A stretch of DNA of 30,114 nt from Thermoproteota archaeon (GTDB lineage Archaea; Korarchaeota; JAOZGF01; JAOZFZ01): the NCBI GenBank assembly GCA_027492035.1, contig JAOZFT010000018.1, forward strand, positions 1 through 30,114, given 5' to 3'. A model generated the notes under the pieces. The model was not told where the DNA came from. It saw only the letters and a list, made by a program, of their open reading frames with translations, and did no database searches. A program made the position numbers and the translations under genes. Numbering within the stretch: the first letter of the stretch is position 1; each line of letters starts with the position of its first letter. This document shows positions 4,385 to 29,206 of the stretch, piece after piece.

Positions 4385-4635
4385 CGAGAAAGTTAAGTTT
4401 TTCAATGAGTTTAATTTTTCTCCAAAGGTTAATTCTTATTTTTAAAAATTTTTCTCTTACCGGTTTTATTAACTTATTATTGGTACAATTTTCTGAGGAT
4501 ATGTGAAGTTCGTGGAGTGTGGAAGCAGAGCAAAGTCGCATATTCCCTATATTTTTTGGAGTTTAGTAGTGCTATTTCCCTAAATGCTCAAAAATTTCTT
4601 CCCGCTTAACAAATTTTTAAAAGGGAGTGAATTGG

Positions 4636-4680
4636 TTAAAAAATATGTTTAACAAATATTTGCAAAACAGGTTTTAGGTG
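4636..4680 (+). promoter_or_regulatory. Probable promoter and ribosome-binding site of the acyl-CoA dehydrogenase gene
   Basis: An A/T box (TTAAAAAATAT, 4636-4646) lies about 45 nt before the start codon, predicting a transcript start near 4668. An AGGTG element at 4676-4680 is 7 nt before the ATG. A second A/T run at about 4611-4621 is an alternative TATA element. Confidence 0.35.
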
Positions 4681-4687
4681 TTTTGAA

Positions 4688-5890
4688 ATGGATTTCTCTT
4701 TAAGTGAAGAACAGGAATTAATAAGGAGAAATATTAGGGAATTTTGTGAAAAGGAACTGGAGCCTGTAGCTCCTGAAATAGATGAGAAAGGGGAAATACC
4801 GAGAAGAATAATTAAAAAAATGGGTGAACTCGGCTTTTTTGGCGTTTTTGCATCTTCTGAATACGGTGGGTCTGAAGGTGACTACGTTTCAGCGGCAATT
4901 ATAGCTGAAGAAATAGCTAAAGCAGACATAAGTGTAGCCACCTCTGTTTATTACTTGTTAAATGTTGCATGGGGAAAAATAGTGGAAATGTTTGGAACAG
5001 AAGAGGTCAAAGAAAAATATCTCCCAAAAATGATTAAGGGAGATTTCTTCATAGGAATAGCTTCAACGGAGCCTGGAGGAGGTTCAGACTTGGCTTCAAT
5101 CAAGACAAACGCTGTCAAAAAAGGAAACAAATTTTTTATAAATGGAGAAAAGGCATACATTAGCGGAGTAAGGGAATCCTCACTTTACGGTGGAGGCTAC
5201 GTCACCCTAACGAAAACAGACCCTGCCAAAGGCCATAAGGGAATAAGTCTTTTATTTGTTCCAATAAAAGAAACAAAAGGTATTTCAACAAGTTTGATCC
5301 ATAACATGGGCAGGACAGGTATATCAACGGGAATAATAACTTTTAAAGACGCTGAAGTGTCTGAAAATTACTTAATAGGAGAATATAACAGAGGATTTTA
5401 TCATGCAATGACTGGTTTCAACCATGCAAGACTTCTTGTTGCAGCTGCATGTGTAGGCTCAGCTGAAAAAGCTCTCGAAATAGGAATAAATTACATTAAA
5501 GAAAGGAAAGCATTCGGCAGACCAATAGGGAAATATGAAGGTATACAGTTCCAATTAGTTGACGATTACACGCAACTAGAAGCAGTGAAACTAATTATTT
5601 ACAAAGCAGCATGGATGATAGACCAATACCACAGAAACAAAAGGTTTACTCAAAGAGAAATAGGCACTGTAGTTGCTGAAGCCAAAAGTTTAGCGCCTCA
5701 AATAGCTTTCAAAACAATAAAGGATGTAATGATGTGGCATGGAGCGTTTGGTTACTCGACGGATTCACCTCTTCACAGGGCATTTAAAGGAGTTACATCC
5801 TATGTTGTAGGTGCTGAAGGAGCACAAAACATAATGAAAATCATAATAGGAAGTGCTTTACTTGGGAAAGAATTTGTCCCATACAGATAA
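4688..5890 (+). CDS. Acyl-CoA dehydrogenase (FAD-dependent)
   Basis: A full-length (400 residues) acyl-CoA dehydrogenase, which oxidises an acyl-CoA thioester at the alpha-beta bond using FAD and passes electrons to an electron-transfer flavoprotein or similar acceptor. It has the N-terminal helical domain (starting FSLSEEQELIRRNIREF), the middle beta domain with the signature FIGIASTEPGGGSDLAS, and the C-terminal helical domain with ERKAFGRPIGKYEGIQFQL. The catalytic base in medium- and short-chain enzymes is a Glu in a 'YEGtsqI' motif; here it aligns to E377 in GAEGAQNIM. The substrate chain is not predictable. The next gene, an SDR-fold protein, follows 72 nt later on the same strand, and the pair may belong to one acyl-CoA or branched-acid pathway. 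No ETF, thiolase or CoA ligase is in the window. Confidence 0.9.
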   Translation: MDFSLSEEQELIRRNIREFCEKELEPVAPEIDEKGEIPRRIIKKMGELGFFGVFASSEYGGSEGDYVSAAIIAEEIAKADISVATSVYYLLNVAWGKIVEMFGTEEVKEKYLPKMIKGDFFIGIASTEPGGGSDLASIKTNAVKKGNKFFINGEKAYISGVRESSLYGGGYVTLTKTDPAKGHKGISLLFVPIKETKGISTSLIHNMGRTGISTGIITFKDAEVSENYLIGEYNRGFYHAMTGFNHARLLVAAACVGSAEKALEIGINYIKERKAFGRPIGKYEGIQFQLVDDYTQLEAVKLIIYKAAWMIDQYHRNKRFTQREIGTVVAEAKSLAPQIAFKTIKDVMMWHGAFGYSTDSPLHRAFKGVTSYVVGAEGAQNIMKIIIGSALLGKEFVPYR

Positions 5891-6793: not shown

Positions 6794-8026
6794 TTATAAG
6801 TTATATTTTGTTTCTGTTTTATTTTCAACCACTACCTTACCTTTACTTATAACAAATTGTGGTGGTTCATGGTATTGCAAAGCTTCCCATACTGTTTCCG
6901 CATTTAAAACAACTAAGTTTGCAATGTTTCCCTTCTTCAAACCATACCTCGGTATACAAAGTATTTCTGCCGGATACCTAGTTACCATGTCATACAGTGT
7001 TTCCATGTCTTTGATTGTTGTAGCCCATAATATATGTGACGCTAAAAAAGCTATTTCTAACATGTTATTTTGTCCATATGGGTAATAAGCATCTGTTATA
7101 TCGTCTTGGCCTAATGCAACGTTCACTCCTGCTTGTAAAAGCTGTTTAACCTTTGCATGTAAAGGGCCTGTATGAGGGTCAGAAACAACCCCTATTTTTG
7201 CTTTCTTCAACAAATTCATTAATCTTTGGAAATAAGCGTTAGGATATACTTGCATAGCTCTTGCATGGTGTACAGACACCTTTCCAACCCATTCTTCCTT
7301 CAATGTTTTCACGGCCAACATCTCTGTAGTTTTGAAGGTTGGGTCTCCTGTATCATCTGTTAACATAGCTACATTTTTACCGTATTCTTTAGCGATTTCA
7401 AACATTTTATCAATGTGTTTCTGCATATCCTCCTCTGTATCCTCTATCCAAGGTATCCCGCCTACAACCTCCGCACCTGCTTCAACTGCTTCTTTAACGT
7501 ATTTCTCAGTTCCTGGATCCTTTTCTACACCATCTTGTGGAAAAGCAACTACTTGGATTGTGCACACGTCCTGAAATTCCTTTTTAAGCTTAAGAAGTGC
7601 TTTAACACCTTTAAGTTTTGCTTTGGTGTCTACGTCAACGAATGCACGATAATAAAGCACTCCATGTTTCAAACCAAGCATTAAAGCCTTTTTCGCGTTT
7701 CGATATATCTGCTCTTCCCTATGTTTCTCCTTGACTTTTGACGCTATCTCTATTGCTAATGCAGCTTTCGACATTGTAGAGGATTGATAAAGCTTCAAAG
7801 CTTCTTCTCCTACCATTTTCATGGTGTAAACTTTGCACATGTGAATATGAGCATTAACAAATGACTCTGTTACAAGTTTACCCTGTGCATTAATTTCTTC
7901 TTCTCCTTTAGCAAGATTTGAACCTATTTTCGCTATAACCCCGTTATTAACGGCTATGTCTAGTTTTTTGTTTGGGAATGAACGGATCCTAGCGTTTCTA
8001 ACAACTAAATCATATTTCTCAATCAA
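6794..8026 (-). CDS. Cytosine-deaminase-like amidohydrolase with altered metal site
   Basis: A metal-dependent amidohydrolase (410 residues) closest in layout to CodA-type cytosine deaminases. Residues 4-55 and the C-terminal 45 residues form the small beta domain around the TIM barrel. Family residues found are the HxH pair (H60, H62 in NAHIHM), the FPQDG glutamine (Q164), SVHHARAM (H253/H254) and GQDDITDAYYPYG (D308/D309). The motif that should read HVDETxDP reads LTDDTGDP. The iron-ligand His (E. coli H214) is therefore L222, and the proton-shuttle Glu (E217) is D225. The enzyme may bind metal differently, act on another substrate, or be inactive. Translation starts at a TTG (8026) behind a GAGGGGT element; no ATG is available before the metal motif. 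It converges with the SDR gene. Confidence 0.8.
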   Translation of the reverse strand: MIEKYDLVVRNARIRSFPNKKLDIAVNNGVIAKIGSNLAKGEEEINAQGKLVTESFVNAHIHMCKVYTMKMVGEEALKLYQSSTMSKAALAIEIASKVKEKHREEQIYRNAKKALMLGLKHGVLYYRAFVDVDTKAKLKGVKALLKLKKEFQDVCTIQVVAFPQDGVEKDPGTEKYVKEAVEAGAEVVGGIPWIEDTEEDMQKHIDKMFEIAKEYGKNVAMLTDDTGDPTFKTTEMLAVKTLKEEWVGKVSVHHARAMQVYPNAYFQRLMNLLKKAKIGVVSDPHTGPLHAKVKQLLQAGVNVALGQDDITDAYYPYGQNNMLEIAFLASHILWATTIKDMETLYDMVTRYPAEILCIPRYGLKKGNIANLVVLNAETVWEALQYHEPPQFVISKGKVVVENKTETKYNL

Positions 8027-8150: not shown

Positions 8151-8552
8151 TTATTTTCTCAGGATTTCCAGAACTATTTTTGACCCCTGCTTCACTTTCT
8201 TAAGTCCTTCCAAGTTATTTCTCACTTTACCTACAACATTTACCGGACTTGCAGGAACTATTTCATCTCCTCTGCTTAGAGGTGTTTGACCAAAAAATAT
8301 ACATATAGCTTTGCCCGGGGGCCAGTAGGCGATGTCTCCCTTTTCAACTTTGGAACTTGTTTTTTCAAGGTTTATTTGTAGATCTGTGGAAAAATAGATT
8401 TCATCCCCCCAAAGGTTCACTCTCCCCTCAATTGGCAATGCCTCCACAATTTTTTGGTAAGTTTTAGGATTAAGCTTTTTAATTAACGTCGCCCTTACTT
8501 CCCCTACTCCCTCTATTTGTATTTTTATTTCTACTTTATCCATTTTATCCAC
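8151..8552 (-). CDS. Archaeal cyclophilin-like fold protein (DUF369/Cyclophil_like family)
   Basis: A 133-residue, beta-rich protein. It matches the archaeal/Thermotoga cyclophilin-like family (TM1367 type) in length and key features: an opening strand (VEIKIQIEGVGEVRATLI), then NLWGDEIYF, then KGDIAYWPPGKAICIFFGQTPLS. The last segment is the family's most conserved part. These proteins share the cyclophilin barrel but lack the residues of peptidyl-prolyl isomerase activity, and no function is established. Two ATGs (8552 and 8543) are both possible starts. It lies about 120 nt after the amidohydrolase start and 130 nt after the radical SAM gene stop, all on the minus strand, probably transcribed separately. 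Confidence 0.8.
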   Translation of the reverse strand: MDKMDKVEIKIQIEGVGEVRATLIKKLNPKTYQKIVEALPIEGRVNLWGDEIYFSTDLQINLEKTSSKVEKGDIAYWPPGKAICIFFGQTPLSRGDEIVPASPVNVVGKVRNNLEGLKKVKQGSKIVLEILRK

Positions 8553-8682: not shown

Positions 8683-9819
8683 TTAACTGCTCCATTTACT
8701 TTTAAGTTCTTCTAACTTAGCTATTCTGCCTTTTTCCAAGTACTCCGTAACTACTTCTTTTATTTTCTTCCCTACTCCGGGTATTTCTGCAAGTTTTCCT
8801 TCTTCATGAAGCGTTTTTATGTTTATTCTCAGCTCCTCAATTGTTTTTGCTGCTTTGTGGTATGCCCATGTAGCGTAAGGGTTCCTTCCCCTCATTTCAT
8901 AAAAGTAAGCTAATAAGAGTAGAGAATAAGAAACTTCAAAATTTTCTTTAAGTTCTCTGTCAAAGTTTGGAGGTTCAATATAATCTTTTATTTTGTATCT
9001 TTTGCATAGATTGAATGCTTTTTGGTTAATTTCGACCATGTACTCCTTTCTCGGTTCCTTATTTCCATCATAAAGTTCTTTATATCTCTCCATCAAATGG
9101 GGCCACTTTTTTCTTAACAAGTTGAGGAACCTTATTTTTTGATTGCTTCTTAAAGTCATTAACCCGTGCAGTAGATATTTTGCTTTTGCTTCAGCTGACT
9201 TCTTTATTACCTCCTTTAGGTTTTCTTCACTGTCTGAAATGAAAGGGATAATGGGTGTAAGCATTACTCCAGAGTTTACTCCTTCCTTCATAAGTTGCTT
9301 AACAAGGTTCAGCCTTTCCTCTGGTTCAGGCGCTAATGGTTCAAACACTTTCGCCAACTCTTCGCTAAAAGTTGTGATAGTGACTGTGACTGTGCACCAA
9401 GAAGTTTTTTGAATTTCTTTAAGCAACTCTATGTCTCTTAAAATTAAAGGTGACTTTGTTCCTAAATGGACAGGGAATTTCTTATTTAACAAAACCTTCA
9501 AAAGATTCTTTGTTATTTCATATTTTCTTTCAGCAGGTTGATAAGTGTCAGTTACTCCACCAAAAGCAATTACGTCCCTTTCAACTTTTTCTGTTTCTTT
9601 CTGCAAAGTTTCAGGTGCATTTACTTTAACATAAATTTTTCTAGAGAAGTCTTTGTAGTTTTCATGAACTAAGTATTTTTCTGTTATTGCGTCACAGTAG
9701 TTGCAAGCGAATTGACAGCCCTTGTAAGGGTTTAAAGTGTAAATGTTCCAGTACCAGTTATCTCTATATTCAAGTTTGTTTATTACTGTTTTACTTCTTA
9801 CCTCAACAAATTCCACCAT
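8683..9819 (-). CDS. SPL-like radical SAM protein fused to a Pol beta/PolX-type helix-hairpin-helix domain
   Basis: The first two thirds are a radical SAM enzyme of the spore-photoproduct-lyase-like group. A CxxxCxxC cluster motif (C35, C39, C42 in GCQFACNYC) should bind a 4Fe-4S cluster and S-adenosylmethionine; GGVTDTYQPAERKYEIT and the HLGTKSPLILRDIELL segment are typical. Residues about 310-375 are a separate helical domain that resembles the 8-kDa N-terminal domain of DNA polymerase beta/PolX: aromatic-containing helices, a helix-hairpin-helix (IPGVGKKI, 346-353), then a helix ending EKGRIAKLEELK. The lysine acting as lyase nucleophile in Pol beta (K72) aligns to Val here, so DNA binding is likelier than dRP-lyase activity. 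I infer a radical enzyme directed to DNA, possibly in repair. The HEAT-repeat gene lies 70 nt upstream on the same strand. Confidence 0.82.
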   Translation of the reverse strand: MVEFVEVRSKTVINKLEYRDNWYWNIYTLNPYKGCQFACNYCDAITEKYLVHENYKDFSRKIYVKVNAPETLQKETEKVERDVIAFGGVTDTYQPAERKYEITKNLLKVLLNKKFPVHLGTKSPLILRDIELLKEIQKTSWCTVTVTITTFSEELAKVFEPLAPEPEERLNLVKQLMKEGVNSGVMLTPIIPFISDSEENLKEVIKKSAEAKAKYLLHGLMTLRSNQKIRFLNLLRKKWPHLMERYKELYDGNKEPRKEYMVEINQKAFNLCKRYKIKDYIEPPNFDRELKENFEVSYSLLLLAYFYEMRGRNPYATWAYHKAAKTIEELRINIKTLHEEGKLAEIPGVGKKIKEVVTEYLEKGRIAKLEELKSKWSS

Positions 9820-9889: not shown

Positions 9890-11212
9890 TCATTTTTTAT
9901 GTTTCTTAAGTTCCTTAAGGCTTTTTTCAACCATTTTCATTGTTTCAGCGGTTCCTTTTATTTCTTTAAGTATTGTTTCAGCTTCATCCCTTCTTTTTTT
10001 CAATAATTTACATGTGTAAGCTGCAGTCCATTTCTTGTTATCATCTTTACCTTTAACCCATGCCTTAAGTTTTTGTAGGAAGGAATCTTCTTTGTTGATA
10101 ATGTTTCTGAGTGAAAAAGCAGCTGTTTTTCTTTGACTCTGTAGATTACTTCCAGCTAATGAATCAATTGTTACTAAAACTTCTTTGTTTTTGAAATAAA
10201 GGTGGGCTAAGCTGTCCCCGATGGACCTATTCACTATAGCCTTTTCGTCTCTGGAGTATTTCAATATTAATTTTAAGGTTTCTTCATTTATCTCTTGAAC
10301 ATTCCTTAAAATGTTTGCTCCAGCTTCTCTAACTTGCCAGTCGTCATCTTTCAGAGCCTTTCTCGAAAAATATAAAATTTTTCTGTCTTCTCCTTTGTAA
10401 ACAAGGCCAGCTGCAAGTACCGCTGTTCTTCTCACCAATCCTCTTTCATCTTTAACCAGATCCTCTAATAAAGGGAAAACATCAACCCCTATCCTGTTTA
10501 GTTCCCTTATTTCTTTCAAGGCCTTTCTTCTTTCACCAGCTTCCTTGTCAGCTGCCAAAGTTTTTATTTTTGAAACATTTAATGTTTGATTTGATGCTTG
10601 TCTTTTAGGGCTTTGTTGAAGAATGCTTTCCTGTTTACCTGGGTCAAGTTTCTTTATTCCGTGTTTAACGATTAGGAAAGTGTAGCGGTTGCCTTCCCTT
10701 AACCATTTCTTACATGTTTCTTCAACCAATTCAGGATCTACTTTCGTTATCTCCCTTAAAATATGGGAAACGGCGTCTCTTACATACTTGTCAGGTTCTG
10801 TCTTAACTTTTTCAATTATATATAGGATTTTCTGCGGTTTCCTCCTTGCAATAAACCTAAGAGACTCAACAGCTGCTCTTTTGACTTTTGAGTTATCATC
10901 CTCAACCCATTCACTCATTTCCTCCAAGAAATCCCTTTCTCTTTTGTGTGAAATCTCTGTTAACGCAGTGGCAACAGCTTCCCTCACTCGCCAATCATCA
11001 TCTGAAGCTGCTTCTTTTAAGGAATTAAAAGCTCTGGAAGGAGTTTGAGTGCCTATTTCGCCCAATAAGAAACAAGCTAAACTTCTCTCTTTCCAATCAC
11101 CATTTTCCAATTCTTTAACTAAACCTAAAATCTCCATTCCATAATTTTTAAACATTTCTTTAGCTAATTTTCTCTGTTCAGTTGATGACTTAGGAACCTG
11201 CAAAACTTTCAC
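9890..11212 (-). CDS. HEAT-repeat protein (PBS-lyase-like repeats)
   Basis: A 440-residue all-helical repeat protein. Two-helix units of about 30-37 residues recur with the signature DDWRVREAVATALTEI or DDWQVREAGANIL, typical of PBS-lyase-type HEAT repeats. At least eight units are discernible, from about residue 30 to 420, with a charged linker near residues 200-240 splitting the solenoid in two. Such proteins are scaffolds or binding adaptors; no catalytic residue is evident. The C terminus is Lys-rich. The start is a GTG at 11212 with no clear ribosome-binding site but a TATA-like run at about 11255-11264, so the mRNA may have a very short leader; the ATG at 11155 is the alternative. It lies upstream of the radical SAM-HhH gene, on the same strand and 70 nt apart, so the two may be co-transcribed. 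Confidence 0.85.
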   Translation of the reverse strand: MKVLQVPKSSTEQRKLAKEMFKNYGMEILGLVKELENGDWKERSLACFLLGEIGTQTPSRAFNSLKEAASDDDWRVREAVATALTEISHKRERDFLEEMSEWVEDDNSKVKRAAVESLRFIARRKPQKILYIIEKVKTEPDKYVRDAVSHILREITKVDPELVEETCKKWLREGNRYTFLIVKHGIKKLDPGKQESILQQSPKRQASNQTLNVSKIKTLAADKEAGERRKALKEIRELNRIGVDVFPLLEDLVKDERGLVRRTAVLAAGLVYKGEDRKILYFSRKALKDDDWQVREAGANILRNVQEINEETLKLILKYSRDEKAIVNRSIGDSLAHLYFKNKEVLVTIDSLAGSNLQSQRKTAAFSLRNIINKEDSFLQKLKAWVKGKDDNKKWTAAYTCKLLKKRRDEAETILKEIKGTAETMKMVEKSLKELKKHKK

Positions 11213-11705: not shown

Positions 11706-11726
11706 TGAATATAAAGGTTGTCACAA

Positions 11727-12734
11727 ATGGAGCTTGATTCAATAAAAACTTTAGGTTTGAATGAAACTGAAACAAAGGTATACTTAACAATTTTAGGCAA
11801 TGAAAACTTAACAGCTTCGGAAGTACAGCGTTTATGTTCATTGTCTAAAGCAACTGTTTACTTAGCTTTGAAAAAACTAAAAGCAATTAATTTAATAACA
11901 GAGTCGGGTAATAACCCAAGAAGGTTTTCCGTAACAGGTGTCAAACCAATTTTACAGTTAAAAGAAGAAATAATGAATAAGGTTGAAGAGGAAACTTCTA
12001 AAGTTGTTGAACTGGTGAATGAGCAGCTTAACAAAAGAAAACATTTCTGTCAAGAAACTAGAAACAAAGTAGTGATTGGAGGCTTATTTTTCGGTAAAGA
12101 AAAAACTATTCATAAATTGGTAGAGTTAATTAGGGAAGCTAAAAAAGAGGTTTATCTGTCAAGCCTTCCTATATGGTTGCTTATGAAACTGAAGCCTCAC
12201 CTTGAAGAAGTGGAAAGGGAAAGAGGGGTAACTGTAAAAATTGCTGTTTCAGATGAAACCTTTATCCCGAAACAGTTGAGGAAGCTTCAAATGTTCCAAT
12301 TCACGTATTTCTTGCCGAAACAAACCGCCTTTTTAGTCAATGGAGAAAAATTCAACAATGGACAAGTATTTGTTGACAGATACCTTTTCGCCAATGTTTA
12401 TTTTAAGGGGGAGGAATTGATACTTGAGTACATTAAGTCACCCAGATGCACTAATTGTGTCCTAAATTTCATACAAAAAATAGCTGAAATAAACAGAAAA
12501 AACCCTGAACTGCAATACATAACCTCCAGAGAAGCTATACTTGTGAAACAGGCGTTAAAAGAAGGCTGCAGGTCAAAAAGGGAACTAAGTTTAGAAACAG
12601 GTTTAAGCGGGAAGAAAGTTAATGAAGCAATATCTCATCTTTTAAAAGAAGGAGCCATAACCCTCAAAAACAAAAAAGGGTATGTCGGCAGACCTAAAAC
12701 AATAGCTTGTCTCATTAAAGCAGATGAAACTTAG
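11727..12734 (+). CDS. TrmB-family transcriptional regulator with an extra C-terminal winged helix
   Basis: A 335-residue regulator. Residues 5-70 are a TrmB-type winged helix (LGLNETETKVYLTIL, then LSKATVYLALKKLKAINLI). Residues 75-108 form a coiled-coil linker. Residues 115-240 look like the TrmB effector/PLD-like domain (IREAKKEVYLSSLPIWLL). Residues 263-335 look like a second winged helix (SREAILVKQALKEGCRSKRELSLETGL, shortened), where TrmB of Thermococcales instead has a sugar-binding domain. A CxxC pair (C241, C244) sits between the effector and second winged-helix domains. The ATG at 11727 is preferred over a TTG 9 nt upstream, given the TATA spacing. Its divergent partner is the four-cysteine mini-protein, a possible target. 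The effector ligand is unknown. Confidence 0.78.
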   Translation: MELDSIKTLGLNETETKVYLTILGNENLTASEVQRLCSLSKATVYLALKKLKAINLITESGNNPRRFSVTGVKPILQLKEEIMNKVEEETSKVVELVNEQLNKRKHFCQETRNKVVIGGLFFGKEKTIHKLVELIREAKKEVYLSSLPIWLLMKLKPHLEEVERERGVTVKIAVSDETFIPKQLRKLQMFQFTYFLPKQTAFLVNGEKFNNGQVFVDRYLFANVYFKGEELILEYIKSPRCTNCVLNFIQKIAEINRKNPELQYITSREAILVKQALKEGCRSKRELSLETGLSGKKVNEAISHLLKEGAITLKNKKGYVGRPKTIACLIKADET

Positions 12735-13566: not shown

Positions 13567-14022
13567 TTAATAGTAAGGAGGGTTCCACCTGCCCATTCCC
13601 TTCCCCCTACCCATGCCTCTGCCCATGCCTCTACCCCTACCCATTCCACGGCCTGGACCGCGCAAACCAGGTGCTCCAGTTGCAGATAAAGGCTGAAGTT
13701 CACCCTTTAAGTACTTCTGCACAGCATCTCTAACTTTTAAACCAGCTCCTGGGAACATTTGGATTCCAGCCTGTTGAAAAGCAGCGAATACGTTTGGTCC
13801 AAAGTTGCCTGCAATAACAGCTCCTACTCCTTGGTTTATGATGAATTGTGCAGCTTGAACACCAGCTCCTGAAAAAGCTGAAGCGGCAGGGTTAGGTACC
13901 ACCTGTGAAGTTTTTATTTCTCCCCCTTGTGTCTCAACAATTGTAAACGTTCTACATCTCCCAAATACCGGGGAAACTAAATCATCTAAACCCCCATTTT
14001 CTGTTGCTACAGCGATTTTCAT
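13567..14022 (-). CDS. NifX/NifB-type (dinitrogenase FeMo-cofactor-like) protein with Gly-Arg-Met-rich tail
   Basis: Residues 1-112 form the NifX/NafY-like fold found in carriers of iron-molybdenum cofactor or its precursors. Typical elements are MKIAVATENGG, SPVFGRCRTFTIVE, FSGAGVQAAQFIINQGV and AGNFGPNVFAAFQQAGI. Residues about 117-151 are a low-complexity tail built from repeated GRGM and GRG units ending in aromatic residues. Small archaeal and bacterial NifX-like proteins often carry such tails, whose function is unknown. No nitrogenase gene is present, so a role as a general metal-cluster carrier is an inference. The repeated CCCATGCCTCTAC-like DNA on the plus strand is only this tail's coding sequence. 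Two homologues lie at 28298 and 28862. An imperfect palindrome precedes the gene. Confidence 0.85.
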   Translation of the reverse strand: MKIAVATENGGLDDLVSPVFGRCRTFTIVETQGGEIKTSQVVPNPAASAFSGAGVQAAQFIINQGVGAVIAGNFGPNVFAAFQQAGIQMFPGAGLKVRDAVQKYLKGELQPLSATGAPGLRGPGRGMGRGRGMGRGMGRGKGMGRWNPPYY

Positions 14023-18408: not shown

Positions 18409-19431
18409 ATGGTAGCTGCAAAGAATTTAAAAATTTTATTTGCCACTTTCCTGGTGTCACTGTTTCTGATTCAAGTAACAGCATCTTATCAACAAGAAAC
18501 TCCCCCTGCAGGCAACAAGAAAATTACTATGACACTTCATGGCCAAAGACAGGTTGCATGGATCTATTTAACTTTTCCCTCCAAGTATGAAGGAAAAAAC
18601 TTGGAGGTTTTAACTGATTCGAAAGGGCACAAAATAGTTGTCCAGCTTTGGAAGGGAATAATACCTGAAGAAGATTTCAACAACAGTTTATCTGAAACTT
18701 ACAAGGGAGTATTGGTGGCATCTTCTCCCCAAAAAGAATTCTGCAGCGAAATAAATCCAGTCCTAAACTGGGAAATAAAAGAGGGGTTTTACACTCTTGT
18801 CTTCATTCATTGGCCAAATGAAAGCGTTGGAGAGAAAATTTTCTGCGGATGCAAAAACTATAACCCAATAGAGATGGAGTACACAATCAATTACGGGGCA
18901 ACAATTTATGGACTGCTTTCTGTGAAAGAAGCAAAACTTATCTACGGTGTTAAGGGAGCTAACAAAGATGACGAAGCAATAAATTTACTTGACGAAAAAT
19001 TACCTATAAAAAGCATTTACCCTGACAATGCACCGGCAATAATTAGTGGCGACAACGTAGTTGTGGTAGGCGGGCCCATAGCTAACATTGTTTCGGAGGA
19101 AATAAACTACGACATGAAAGTTAAGTTTAAAAAGAAAAGCTTCGGTATAGAACTCTGGATTCCAAGTTACAAGTTCACTTTCTACTGGGAAGACTTTGGA
19201 AAAAAAGATTACGGCCTAATAACAGCTGCAACGTTTAAAGACAAAACATACTGGACTTTCCAGGGATGCAGTAGATATGGCACTTTAGCAGCAGTTATAT
19301 ACTTCCTTCAACACCCAAGCCGCCTGAGAGATAAATCAATGGCTGTAGTGGAATGGATTGACAGAAACCATGACGGAAAAGTTTCTTACCAGTATGAAAT
19401 CGAGTTAAGATGCACCTTAACAGCCAAATAA
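18409..19431 (+). CDS. Secreted S-layer-like surface protein
   Basis: A 340-residue exported protein. Residues 1-26 are a signal peptide (KNLKILFATFLVSLFLIQ core, cleavage near TASYQQ). The body is beta-rich, with cysteines at 112, 146 and 148. The C-terminal third carries features of archaeal S-layer-type domains: DNVVVVGGPIAN (215-226), DYGLITAATF (267-276) and GCSRYGTLAAVIYFL (286-300). These match the 'vvGGP-xxN ... DYaxI ... G-x-x-x-yGT-xAA' arrangement of those domains. An acidic loop, DRNHDGKVS (318-326), resembles a calcium loop, but its twelfth position is not acidic. No C-terminal membrane anchor is present, so it is either released or held by partners. AAAGGAG at about 18395-18401 is the ribosome-binding site. 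Confidence 0.72.
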   Translation: MVAAKNLKILFATFLVSLFLIQVTASYQQETPPAGNKKITMTLHGQRQVAWIYLTFPSKYEGKNLEVLTDSKGHKIVVQLWKGIIPEEDFNNSLSETYKGVLVASSPQKEFCSEINPVLNWEIKEGFYTLVFIHWPNESVGEKIFCGCKNYNPIEMEYTINYGATIYGLLSVKEAKLIYGVKGANKDDEAINLLDEKLPIKSIYPDNAPAIISGDNVVVVGGPIANIVSEEINYDMKVKFKKKSFGIELWIPSYKFTFYWEDFGKKDYGLITAATFKDKTYWTFQGCSRYGTLAAVIYFLQHPSRLRDKSMAVVEWIDRNHDGKVSYQYEIELRCTLTAK

Positions 19432-21582: not shown

Positions 21583-23412
21583 TTACTTAACCATTTTGGA
21601 GAATTTACTTAAACCAAGTTTCTTCAGTTTCTCTTTTGTGGGAACCCCCTCCTCGTCCCATCCTCTCAATTGGTAATATTCCATAAGCATTTTTTCGAAG
21701 TCTTCTTTAGACACTGTTTTTCCTTTAGCAGGCCCTGAAGGTAATGGATCCTTCATCATTCTCTCCGGTAAGTAGTCATTTTTCTTTCTAAACCCTTCAC
21801 GTACATTAAAAACCCTTACAAGGTTCCATATTTTCTCTCCTATTCTTTCAAACTCTGACAGATTCACTTCCTTGCCTGTAACTAACTGATAAAATTTATG
21901 CATGGTTTCAACTGTTACTGGGTAAAAATCACAAAATATCATGCTAAACTTTAAACTGTTTTGATTTTGTTGATCTATAACAAGTTTGGCTTTACCTTCA
22001 GTGGTGAATGGGTTCAGGTCTCCAAAGGCTTCTTCACCAACAGGCCAGGCCCTCATGTGGCATGCTCCCCTATCCGAAGTTGCATATGCTAAAGCCATGC
22101 CTATTGATCCTCTAGGGTCATATCCTGGATACTCTAAACCTTTCACTTCCAAAGCAAACCTTCTAACTCTACCGCCTAATTTGTTAACCATTCCCCGTAC
22201 CCCTTCAGCAAGTAAGTTTCCTGCACCCTCCCTATAAGCTGTTTTCTCAAGTAATTTAATGTAATTATCAACATTTCCGAAACCAGGTTCTATATTGTCA
22301 AGGTCTTCTTTTCTCAAGTACCCCCTTAAATATAATTCAGTAGTGAAAGCTAGAACGTTCCCTGAGGAAATTGTGTCTAATCCCAGATTGTCACAGAGGT
22401 CGTTAAGTTTAATTATGCTTCCGAGGTCGCCTATTCCTAAGTTTGAACCCATTAAAGCTATTGTTTCATACTCCGGTCCTTCAATTGTTAAGCCCTTAAA
22501 TTTACCTTCTCTTACTTCAGCAACGTTTCTACAGCCTATTGGACATTTAAAACAGTTCACTTTCTTAACTAAATACTTTTCCTTTAGCGTATCAGCGTTT
22601 ATGTTTTTGGCTTCTTCGAACACTCCAAATTGGAAATTGTTGGTTGGAAGTAGCCCTTCTTCATTAGACATGTCCACTATTGAGGGGGTTCCGTCTGTTC
22701 TGGCCCAGTCTACGTCGGGGTTTTCCATTATATCCCTCTTCACTACTTCTTTATAAAATTTTTTGTACTCTTCAGGCTTAGCTATCTCTACTTCCCCTTC
22801 CCCTTTAACAGCCACTGCTTTAAGGTTTTTTGAACCCATTACAGCTCCTGGTCCACCTCTGGACAAGTTATGGTGAAGTTCACTGGTTATGCAGGCAAAT
22901 TTAACAAGTTTCTCACCAGCAGGTCCTATACAAGCCACTTTAAAATCTTTTCCCTCCATTTTCTGAATACCTTCAGTTGTTTCGTAAACTCCTTTCCCTT
23001 TAAATTGTGAAGCATCCTTTAACTGGATTTCCTCGTTTCTTATTTCCAAATAAACAAGTTTTTCAGATTTTCCTTTGATGATTATGCCGTCGTAGCCTGC
23101 GAATTTCAGGTCAGCCATGAAGGTTCCGCCAGCGTAACAATCCAGGAAAGTGTTTGTGGCTGGAGATTTTGTTACAACCGTATATTTAGCTGAGGCAGGT
23201 GCGTTGGTTCCGGTTATGGGTCCAGTCATGAAAATCAAGATATTCTCTGGAGATAGAGGATTAACGCCAGGTTTCAATTCTTCTAAAAGATATCTTGCAG
23301 CTAACCCTTTCCCTCCAATGTACTCCTCGGCAAAATCCATGCGTAAAGGCTCCTCTGTGATTTTTTCATTTGTTAAATCAACCTTTAACATTTTGCCTTT
23401 ATACCCGTACAT
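21583..23412 (-). CDS. aor: Tungsten-dependent aldehyde:ferredoxin oxidoreductase
   Basis: A 609-residue AOR-family enzyme, which oxidises aldehydes to carboxylic acids with ferredoxin as acceptor, using a tungsten bis-pyranopterin centre and one 4Fe-4S cluster; it is cytoplasmic. Cluster ligands are C287, C290 and C294 (CxxCxxxC) and C494, the same pattern and near-identical positions as Pyrococcus AOR. EGPEYET (E311, E314), GYDPRG (430-435) and RGACHMR (H452) line the pterin/active-site region. The N-terminal beta domain (GYKGKMLKVDLTN, IGGKGLAARYLL) is complete. Whether it is AOR, formaldehyde or glyceraldehyde-3-phosphate type cannot be fixed; length and cysteine spacing fit AOR. GGAGTGAT 8 nt before the ATG is a strong Shine-Dalgarno sequence. 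Tungsten dependence suggests an anaerobe. The V4R gene lies 167 nt upstream on the same strand. Confidence 0.92.
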   Translation of the reverse strand: MYGYKGKMLKVDLTNEKITEEPLRMDFAEEYIGGKGLAARYLLEELKPGVNPLSPENILIFMTGPITGTNAPASAKYTVVTKSPATNTFLDCYAGGTFMADLKFAGYDGIIIKGKSEKLVYLEIRNEEIQLKDASQFKGKGVYETTEGIQKMEGKDFKVACIGPAGEKLVKFACITSELHHNLSRGGPGAVMGSKNLKAVAVKGEGEVEIAKPEEYKKFYKEVVKRDIMENPDVDWARTDGTPSIVDMSNEEGLLPTNNFQFGVFEEAKNINADTLKEKYLVKKVNCFKCPIGCRNVAEVREGKFKGLTIEGPEYETIALMGSNLGIGDLGSIIKLNDLCDNLGLDTISSGNVLAFTTELYLRGYLRKEDLDNIEPGFGNVDNYIKLLEKTAYREGAGNLLAEGVRGMVNKLGGRVRRFALEVKGLEYPGYDPRGSIGMALAYATSDRGACHMRAWPVGEEAFGDLNPFTTEGKAKLVIDQQNQNSLKFSMIFCDFYPVTVETMHKFYQLVTGKEVNLSEFERIGEKIWNLVRVFNVREGFRKKNDYLPERMMKDPLPSGPAKGKTVSKEDFEKMLMEYYQLRGWDEEGVPTKEKLKKLGLSKFSKMVK

Positions 23413-27520: not shown

Positions 27521-27564
27521 AATTTTTAAATTAATTTGTGCATTAACACATAAATGGAGGTGAT
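27521..27564 (+). promoter_or_regulatory. Promoter and strong ribosome-binding site of the DUF5320/NifX cluster
   Basis: A TATA-like run (AATTTTTAAATTA, 27521-27533) predicts initiation near 27552. A TGTG-CACA inverted repeat (27537-27550) fills the gap, and GGAGGTGAT (27556-27564) follows. Because the Shine-Dalgarno sequence lies downstream of the first ATG (27554), it argues for translation starting at 27578. Confidence 0.45.
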
Positions 27565-27577
27565 GATTACGGCTTGG

Positions 27578-27934
27578 ATGAATTGGCAAACAGGATTTGG
27601 AGGAAGGGGGAACAGATATAGGTGGATGTATTACTTAACAGGAACACCTGGTTGGTTGAGATTCGGTTTCTCACCAGGCTGGCTTGGCAGGTCACCAACA
27701 GGTTTACCGCCAACGGCACAATGGATTATTTCAAGCGGGTTGCTTCCACAATACACTTCATATCTAGCCCAAAACCCACCAGTAGCACCTGTAGGCCCAT
27801 TTCCAACAGCACCCGTAACACCTACAACACCTGGATTAACAAAGGAGCAAGAAAAACAAATGCTTGAGCAACAAATGAAGATCTTAGAAAGTCAGTTAGA
27901 AGCTATTAAAAAAAGACTTGAAGATTTGAAATGA
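27578..27934 (+). CDS. DUF5320-type aromatic-rich protein with C-terminal coiled coil (first copy)
   Basis: About 118 residues. The N-terminal part is rich in Gly, Arg and aromatic residues (GFGGRGNRYRWMYYLTG) with the PGWLRFGFSPGWLGRSPTGLPP segment that I associate with DUF5320-type proteins. A Pro/Thr-rich linker follows, then a coiled coil from about residue 88 (QEKQMLEQQMKILESQLE). Proteins of this style commonly sit beside NifX-like genes in archaea and anaerobic bacteria; their function is not known. The frame also opens at ATG 27554, but GGAGGTGAT lies inside that extension, so I choose 27578. It is the first gene of a cluster: 16 nt to the next gene, which overlaps the NifX-like gene. 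Confidence 0.72.
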   Translation: MNWQTGFGGRGNRYRWMYYLTGTPGWLRFGFSPGWLGRSPTGLPPTAQWIISSGLLPQYTSYLAQNPPVAPVGPFPTAPVTPTTPGLTKEQEKQMLEQQMKILESQLEAIKKRLEDLK

Positions 27935-27950
27935 AGAGCGGTGAATAGGG

Positions 27951-28301
27951 ATGCCTAGGGGGTGCGGATTCAGAGGGGCCTGGTTTCCAGGCTACTATGG
28001 GGCATGGTTAGGTTGGTCAAGTTATTATTGGCCATGGTTGAACTGGTGGCGTTGCAGATGGTTCCCTTGGCTCCCTAGATGGTGGTGGACAGGTATTTAC
28101 GGCCCGCTTACATGGACCCCTTATGGCCCCAGTATTACGTCCCCTTGGTCAGCAACTACCAGTTACATCCCTTACTATCCCCCTTTTTACTCAGTAACTC
28201 CCTCAAAGGAGCATGAATACTTGTTAGAGCAGAAGAAAGCGTTAGAGGATGAACTTAAAAAAATTGAGAATAGGCTTAAGGAGTTGGAAGAGTCGAAATG
28301 A
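27951..28301 (+). CDS. Tryptophan/tyrosine-rich DUF5320-like protein with C-terminal coiled coil (second copy)
   Basis: 116 residues. The first 75 are extraordinarily aromatic: 14 Trp in the whole protein, with WW and WWW runs and many Tyr, Pro and Gly residues, and no obvious hydrophobic helix of membrane length free of turns. The last 35 residues form a coiled coil (EYLLEQKKALEDELKKIEN) like that of the preceding gene. It looks like a divergent duplicate of that gene with its N-terminal domain changed. The stop codon overlaps the NifX-like start (ATGA, 28298-28301), implying translational coupling and so probable interaction. GGTGA precedes the ATG at 27951. Possible roles are a surface or membrane-interface protein or a scaffold; none is shown. 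Confidence 0.72.
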   Translation: MPRGCGFRGAWFPGYYGAWLGWSSYYWPWLNWWRCRWFPWLPRWWWTGIYGPLTWTPYGPSITSPWSATTSYIPYYPPFYSVTPSKEHEYLLEQKKALEDELKKIENRLKELEESK

Positions 28302-28759
28302 AGATATTATTGGCTACCCAAACTAGAGGGGGATTGAATGACTTTATTTCCCCTGTTTTCGGCAGGGCTTCAACATTCACTATCGTTGAGGTTAAGGATG
28401 GGAAAGTGGAAAAGGTGGAGGTGATTAGGAACCAGGCTGCTGCAGCTTTCTCTGGTGCAGGCATACAAGCTGCACAGTTTGCTGTTAACAAAAATGTAGA
28501 CATGGTTGTAGCTGGTTCTTTCGGACCTAATGCATCAATGGTTCTTGCCCAGTCGGGTGTTATATTCACGGCTGGCTACGCAGGTTTTAAAGTGGAGGAT
28601 GCCATTAAAATCCTTATTAAAGAAGGAAGAATGAGGTTAAGTGTTGAACAGGAAAAAAGGGTTCTTGAAGCAAGGAAAAGGTACATAGAGGACCAATTAC
28701 GCTGGATAAAGGAAAGACTGAAACAATTTGAAGAGAAAAATGAGAAACAGAGTAAGTGA
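28298..28759 (+). CDS. NifX-like protein with C-terminal coiled-coil extension
   Basis: Residues 1-112 are the NifX/FeMo-cofactor-carrier fold (KILLATQTRGGLNDFIS, PVFGRASTFTIVEV, FSGAGIQAAQFAVN, AGSFGPNASMVLAQSG). Residues about 115-150 are a charged helix (EQEKRVLEARKRYIEDQLRW) of the same style as the coiled coils on the two preceding proteins. NifX-like proteins are normally only about 110-120 residues, or have a Gly/Arg/Met tail, so this coiled coil looks like an acquired assembly element. It overlaps the Trp-rich gene by 4 nt. No nif structural genes are present. I infer a cofactor or metal-cluster carrier docked to the DUF5320-type proteins. Confidence 0.82.
   Translation: MKILLATQTRGGLNDFISPVFGRASTFTIVEVKDGKVEKVEVIRNQAAAAFSGAGIQAAQFAVNKNVDMVVAGSFGPNASMVLAQSGVIFTAGYAGFKVEDAIKILIKEGRMRLSVEQEKRVLEARKRYIEDQLRWIKERLKQFEEKNEKQSK
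28354..28380 (+). repeat. 27-nt identical stretch, copy 1
   Basis: Codes for VFGRASTFT in the NifX-like gene. It is identical base for base to 28918-28944 in the next NifX-like gene, although flanking sequence differs. Confidence 0.7.
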
Positions 28760-28861
28760 CGTCCTTGAACAAAAGAAAAACTTCAAATTTAAAAATTTCC
28801 TGTAGGTTTTTTCTCCACTTTCCCCCTTAATTTTTTCAAGGAGTAGTTTGAGGTGAGGGAT

Positions 28862-29206
28862 GTGAAAGTCGCTGTTGCAACTAAAGGCAGTAAGGGCTTG
28901 AAGGATGAGGTTTCAAATGTTTTCGGCAGGGCTTCAACATTCACCCTTATAGAAGTAGAGAATGGAAAAGTGAAGAACGTAACAGTTGTTAATAACCCTG
29001 CAGTTGACTATGAGTTTGGAGCTGGGCCCATAGTTGTGAAAACACTTGTAGATTTGAAAGTAGACACTGTTGTCGCCAGCGAATTTGGAATGGGTGTTTC
29101 AAAACTATTAGACGCTCACAAAATAACAAAATTCAAGGCTGAACCAGGGGAAATAGTGGAGAAAGTGCTTTACAATATTCAAGAAATAAAACAGAAAGAG
29201 ACTTAA
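28862..29206 (+). CDS. NifX-like protein, short form
   Basis: About 114 residues with only the NifX core: KVAVATKGSKGLKDEVS, NVFGRASTFTLIEVENGKV, a central FGAGPIVVKTLVDLKV in place of the usual FSGAGIQAAQ, and ASEFGMGVSKLLD. No tail is present. I take the GTG at 28862 as start, with AGGTGAGGG (28851-28859) upstream, because family members begin at MKVAVAT; a GTG at 28853 is the alternative. It lies about 100 nt after the coiled-coil NifX gene on the same strand and shares a 27-nt identical segment with it. It may carry a different cofactor state or pair with the longer copy. Confidence 0.82.
   Translation: MKVAVATKGSKGLKDEVSNVFGRASTFTLIEVENGKVKNVTVVNNPAVDYEFGAGPIVVKTLVDLKVDTVVASEFGMGVSKLLDAHKITKFKAEPGEIVEKVLYNIQEIKQKET
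28918..28944 (+). repeat. 27-nt identical stretch, copy 2
   Basis: The second copy of the segment at 28354-28380, in the same protein context. Confidence 0.7.

Follow-up and report, generated by a model that had tools for sequence, protein, structure and literature searches.

An archaeal radical-SAM protein fused to a Pol beta-type 8-kDa domain and its AlkD-family neighbor point to a two-gene DNA-damage repair module

The 30,114-nucleotide stretch of archaeal DNA analysed here (hereafter the window, from a korarchaeal Thermoproteota genome assembly) encodes a 378-amino-acid protein with an ATG start at positions 8683-9819 of the minus strand, the strand of every feature of this gene and its partner given below. 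Its sequence confirms it as a genuine fusion between a radical-SAM enzyme and a small domain of the DNA-binding type found in DNA polymerase beta (Pol beta). The fusion and the AlkD-family gene that adjoins it point to a two-gene module for the repair of DNA damage. We favor, with moderate confidence, the reading that the fusion is an archaeal radical-SAM enzyme that processes DNA lesions, working with an AlkD-family protein that recognizes them.

The radical-SAM barrel takes up residues 1-285 (8965-9819) and is matched by the Pfam model Radical_SAM (PF04055) over residues 30-201 (E 2.8e-15; 57.3 bits against a curated cutoff of 29.5). The CxxxCxxC motif for the [4Fe-4S] cluster, which an initial annotation had placed at C35, C39 and C42, is indeed present: it reads CQFACNYC (C35-x3-C39-x2-C42, 9694-9717) and is invariant in the family alignment. 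Residues 288-376 (8692-8958) form the Pol beta/PolX-type 8-kDa domain, delimited by Pfam, solved relatives and profile alignment. HHH_8 (PF14716) matches residues 300-365 of the fusion (E 2.9e-12; 47.2 bits, cutoff 30), and rises to 50.9 bits when the C-terminal 97 residues are searched alone. A search of solved structures with the C-terminus ranks Thermus PolX (3au2, 3e-11) first, ahead of Pol lambda and Pol beta, and in a profile of 12 family members columns 289-371 align to Pol beta residues 10-89, so that the complete 8-kDa domain is present, beyond the hairpin alone. The annotation had proposed such a domain and set an unrelated helical domain against it; the HHH_8 and PolX matches speak for the former, and we rejected the latter. 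Its reading of a valine at the lyase position was also correct: the position of Pol beta K72, the Schiff-base lyase lysine, is Val both in the window protein and in the family consensus, as direct reading and the profile alignment of the helix-hairpin-helix (EIPGVGKKIKEVVTEYL, 8737-8787) agree. The likeness to Pol beta and PolX thus runs over the full length of the domain, GVG hairpin included, but the domain is joined to a polymerase there and to a radical-SAM barrel here, with Lys72 replaced by Val. Whole-genome searches of G000, G001, G027 and G183 found HHH_8 solely in the fusion, and no PolX gene was found in these four genomes. In the predicted model the C-terminal domain has a pLDDT mostly below 50, with just two alignment rows reaching that region, and the structural matches of the model cover the barrel only.

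A run-on into a neighboring gene, the other alternative considered by the annotation, was rejected on the conservation of the fusion in five related genomes: G001 (74% identity), G002 (53%), G183 (53%), G027 (38%) and G028 (36%), with HHH_8 above its cutoff in each. Against the 74% homologue (L032), the C-terminal part of the window protein is 81% conserved and the enzyme part 72%, and the nucleotide changes fall mostly on third codon positions. Surveying archaeal homologues, we found the same fusion not only in related archaea but also in at least two further phyla, one of them Asgard-like, and 394 sampled archaeal genomes yielded more full-length relatives. The phylum to which G120 belongs has a strong match in 61 of 195 genomes, and most of these matches, though not all, are full length. 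We read this phylum as Asgard archaea because Ras-type GTPases are abundant in it (22-73 matches per genome versus 0-4 in the other lineages tested), an inference of our own. Judged by its sequence matches, this family of fusions is widespread in archaea. The distribution survey covered archaeal genomes, mainly draft assemblies, in which the absence of a gene from an incomplete assembly is weak evidence. A FastTree tree of the family has a weak backbone and is compatible with one as well as with several origins of the fusion. A scan of a genome-contig collection returned one homologue, and no record in a plasmid collection covered 80% of the query.

As to its branch, the barrel scores 212 bits with the model of the Rv2578c family (NF038135, cutoff 430) and 188 bits with that of the PA0069 family (NF033668, cutoff 360). 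Both matches stop at the end of the barrel and leave the 8-kDa domain outside. These two uncharacterised COG1533 families are the closest named relatives of the barrel; they lack an 8-kDa domain in the model match, whereas the window protein has one. Judged by sequence, the window protein is a relative of the Rv2578c equivalog family, and no member of it. A DNA-repair link for a Streptomyces member of that family has been termed speculative (PMC12924846), and bacterial COG1533 members are under SOS regulation (PMC8565304). Barrel-only relatives were also seen: a second, non-fused radical-SAM gene in G000 (C9:3622-4293, L002; 40% identity over residues 27-260), and COG1533-type proteins on IMG/VR viral contigs (L106-L123; 22-32% identity), which yielded no relatives of any other kind.

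The predicted barrel, compared with solved folds, gives spore photoproduct lyase (SPL) structures as its top six matches (Z 15.8-16.6 over 243-249 residues) at 13% identity. Since SPL is a DNA-repair enzyme, these nearest folds favor a DNA-lesion substrate. The same matches would also suit a bona fide SPL-type enzyme that directly reverses thymine dimers, and this we consider extremely improbable. At E 1 the window protein gives no match to the SPL profile PF20903; no cysteine lies between C42 and C142, and the three cluster ligands C35/C39/C42 are the only invariant cysteines across the family alignment. The hydrogen donor of SPL, which we take to be C140 of the Geobacillus enzyme, about 43 residues past the cluster, would be expected near residue 85 here. 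As this catalytic cysteine is absent, SPL chemistry is not expected, and we rejected a true SPL on the lack of both the profile match and the cysteine. The label of SPL-like enzyme given by the initial annotation is therefore to be kept for the barrel fold and dropped for the branch, which is Rv2578c/PA0069-like. SPL is a radical-SAM enzyme acting on DNA and the nearest solved fold to the barrel (Z 16.6), but only the window protein bears a C-terminal 8-kDa domain. Lower in Z than SPL, the list of folds also contains the RNA modifiers TYW1 and Cfr, as would suit an RNA-modifying radical-SAM enzyme whose helix-hairpin-helix (HhH) binds tRNA or rRNA. However, the type of the 8-kDa domain is specifically that of DNA polymerase X and the partner comes from a DNA-glycosylase family, which makes a role on RNA very unlikely in our judgment.

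This partner is encoded 70 bp upstream of the fusion and in the same direction (9890-11212): a 440-amino-acid HEAT-repeat protein of the AlkC/AlkD superfamily (PF08713, DNA_alkylation; 71.9 bits, cutoff 21). It is homologous to genes that stand beside the radical-SAM gene in G183, G120, G157, G294, G002, G004 and G001, and in the first three of these genomes the two reading frames overlap. By cross-matching the two family searches over the same 394 genomes, we found a radical-SAM gene of this group next to a PF08713 gene in 13 of the 33 archaeal genomes that hold both families (G000, G001, G002, G004, G007, G017, G020, G026, G120, G157, G183, G227 and G294, from seven families). From genome sizes we estimate that chance would place a neighbor within about 3 kb in roughly 0.1 of these genomes. 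In G000, G001, G002, G004, G183, G120, G007, G017, G020 and G472, the sole PF08713 gene found is the one adjoining the radical-SAM gene; the distance is about 1.1 kb in G001 and G004. Among the loci read with their flanks, the pair is present in 18 Asgard-like ones, and the tightest pairing is that of family f57. Gene order varies between lineages without loss of adjacency: the partner precedes the radical-SAM gene in the window, G183, G004 and G444 and follows it in G002 and the f57 genomes. An AlkD-family neighbor next to a protein with a Pol beta/PolX-type domain favors the DNA-lesion reading, and the DNA-repair role that the annotation had called plausible gains independent support from this gene order.

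The pairing has exceptions on both sides. In G243, G441, G191 and G277 the two genes lie apart, and searches of G027, G028 and G221 detected no PF08713 gene, so the fusion can exist without its partner. Conversely, among the genomes with an adjacent pair, G007, G017, G020, G026 and G227 carry a non-fused barrel. A weak AlkD-type neighbor stands beside the non-fused relatives L009-L011, and the partners in G007, G017 and G020 are weak and window-like. Since barrels that are not fused also have AlkD-type neighbors, the pairing appears independent of the HhH domain. In G026 (C95:8535-10112), the radical-SAM gene that stands beside the PF08713 gene is broken by a stop or frameshift in that assembly.

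Residue alignment and structural matches divide the partner into an AlkD2-like N-terminal half (residues 1-193, 10634-11212) and an additional C-terminal HEAT solenoid (residues 205-440, 9893-10600), the latter setting it apart from AlkD, AlkD2 and AlkC and corresponding to a separate ORF in the G001 genome. There, the partner is found as two adjoining ORFs (L060:3886-4593 and 4602-5429) split between the AlkD2-like half and the solenoid. A Foldseek search with the whole predicted model (pLDDT 90) returned mostly generic HEAT scaffolds; a later comparison gave AlkD2 (Z 21.7, 2.0 Å) and DNA-bound AlkC (Z 19.0) for residues 1-193. The catalytic residues differ between lineages. W109, D113, R148 and W187 of AlkD are all kept in every complete partner of the G183, G004, G444 and f57 genomes, and on this ground these partners look competent as alkylpurine glycosylases. 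By contrast, the window partner departs from the AlkD residue set with W/E/R/H at these positions, that is, E for D113 and H for W187. The partners of G001, G020 and G017 have the same pattern (loci including L010:2333-2935 and L011:900-1502), and its occurrence in two separate archaeal families makes it look like a stable subclass and not decay. AlkC likewise uses Glu, so catalysis in this subclass may be altered rather than absent. AlkD2, for its part, has no alkylpurine glycosylase activity and binds abasic DNA weakly (PMC4433238). From the residues and the predicted model, we conclude that recognizing lesions, above excising them, would be the more conserved role of the partner, which in the lineage of the window has probably turned into an AlkD2-like recognition subunit.

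A partner without the standard AlkD catalytic pattern in the window lineage could also speak for a different use of the pair, in which the fusion would put a programmed modification on DNA bases or take it off instead of repairing damage; radical-SAM enzymes often modify nucleic acids. Yet no modification cassette, methyltransferase or restriction gene was recognized alongside the fusion, most partners have the full alkylpurine-glycosylase active site, and matches to defense libraries are weak and non-specific, all of which leads us to regard programmed modification as quite unlikely. A defense system was rejected as well, the PADLOC matches being weak: that of OloA, at 33 bits, falls on the HEAT protein and most likely reflects HEAT repeats.

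Of the other loci read, none has homologues of the fusion's downstream neighbors, a cyclophilin-like gene (8151-8552) and an amidohydrolase gene (6794-8026), next to its radical-SAM gene. A TrmB-type regulator (11718-12734) is divergent from the HEAT and radical-SAM genes, and G001 has one in the same place (L060:5867-6880). G002 has a small Cys-rich DUF3795 gene immediately upstream of its radical-SAM gene (L061:4266-4574), and in G001 one stands beside the HEAT gene (L060:5347-5622); none was seen at the window locus. Farther away, the window contains two small DUF5320-like ORFs, rich in Trp/Gly/Pro and with charged C-termini (27554-28301), adjoining NifX-like genes (28298-29206), a third NifX-like gene (Nitro_FeMo-Co) with a Gly/Met/Arg-rich tail (13567-14022), and a 340-amino-acid ORF (18409-19431) whose N-terminus resembles a signal sequence and for which Pfam gives no match at E 0.01.

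The 8-kDa domain itself is conserved unevenly. The GxG of its hairpin is intact in the window, in G001, G002, G183 and G444 (of family f149), in f143 and in most members of f145, where for f143, f145 and G444 the grading was intact or nearly so. It is degenerate in G221 and in the Asgard-like families f57 and f42, in which the remainder of the domain is still recognizable. HHH_8 is matched individually by six of the 17 members of a profile built from Asgard-type C-termini only, and this profile finds PolX independently (3e-7). The degenerate hairpins, together with a partner that is not always adjacent or present, the AlkD-type neighbors of non-fused barrels and the low-confidence model of the domain, weaken the DNA-lesion reading. 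The hairpin degeneracy could instead mean that the 8-kDa domain is mainly structural or protein-binding, such as by docking the HEAT partner, while barrel and partner contact DNA themselves. Such a role would explain why f57 and f42 retain the domain with a degenerate hairpin, f57 being the family with the tightest AlkD pairing. We nonetheless consider it unlikely: the GxG is intact in all the groups just listed, and the group of the window scores above the curated HHH_8 cutoff.

A precedent for the architecture exists in bacteria, where COG4277, a protein with radical-SAM and HhH domains, is paired with the uracil-DNA glycosylase (UDG) family COG1573 (PMC8565304; see also PMC3765255). That this separate protein is also paired with a glycosylase favors the DNA-lesion reading here. 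COG4277, or TIGR03916 (rSAM_link_UDG), shares with our fusion the radical-SAM domain, the C-terminal HhH and the glycosylase-type gene pairing, but it is a separate radical-SAM family, and the HhH of its archaeal members (VDPNQASYQELIRVPGIGPISAKRI) is of a different type. Its model finds no match in the window protein at E 1, on which ground we rejected membership, and none in the whole G000 genome. Going by these sequence comparisons, the present module looks like a parallel solution, built from another radical-SAM branch, another HhH and another glycosylase family. Our searches of the open-licence literature turned up neither the fusion nor its pairing with AlkD. The annotation knew of no characterised protein with this combination; the uncharacterised COG4277/TIGR03916 already joins a radical-SAM domain to an HhH of another type.

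How the favored DNA-lesion enzyme might work can be outlined. Lesions would be found by the neighboring AlkD-family HEAT protein, which in most lineages may be able to excise alkylated bases too; the 8-kDa domain, without its lyase lysine, would anchor the enzyme on DNA, and the likeliest place is a site that is damaged, gapped or abasic. Both steps are suggested by homology and gene context. The barrel, with its [4Fe-4S] cluster, would cleave SAM to a 5'-deoxyadenosyl radical, and this radical may then attack the damaged or modified nucleotide. The data show the two domains, the conserved fusion, the conserved gene pairing and which AlkD catalytic residues are kept or replaced; that DNA is the substrate, that the two proteins physically cooperate and that a radical reaction takes place are what we infer from the whole. 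A more specific version, which we regard as quite improbable, is an oxygen-independent repair of alkylated bases, in which the AlkD-family protein would recognize lesions without flipping the base out, leaving it to the radical-SAM enzyme to remove or process them by radical chemistry. None of the 20 genomes tested yielded an AlkB-family gene, and other HhH-GPD glycosylases are present in G000. An aldehyde ferredoxin oxidoreductase (AFOR) gene in the window (21583-23412) is consistent with an anaerobic host. If this version were true, the pair would fill in anaerobic archaea the role of the oxygen-dependent AlkB dioxygenase.

To our knowledge, hardly any radical-SAM enzyme besides spore photoproduct lyase has a demonstrated role in DNA repair. 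Here, a relative of the widespread Rv2578c family carries a DNA-binding domain of the DNA-polymerase type, and its gene order links it to a glycosylase family of alkylation repair, a link that spans distant archaea, Asgard-like genomes included. After COG4277 with its UDG, this is a second and apparently independent pairing between a glycosylase and a radical-SAM/HhH protein, and it provides a concrete pair of proteins with which to ask whether radical chemistry repairs DNA damage other than that caused by UV.
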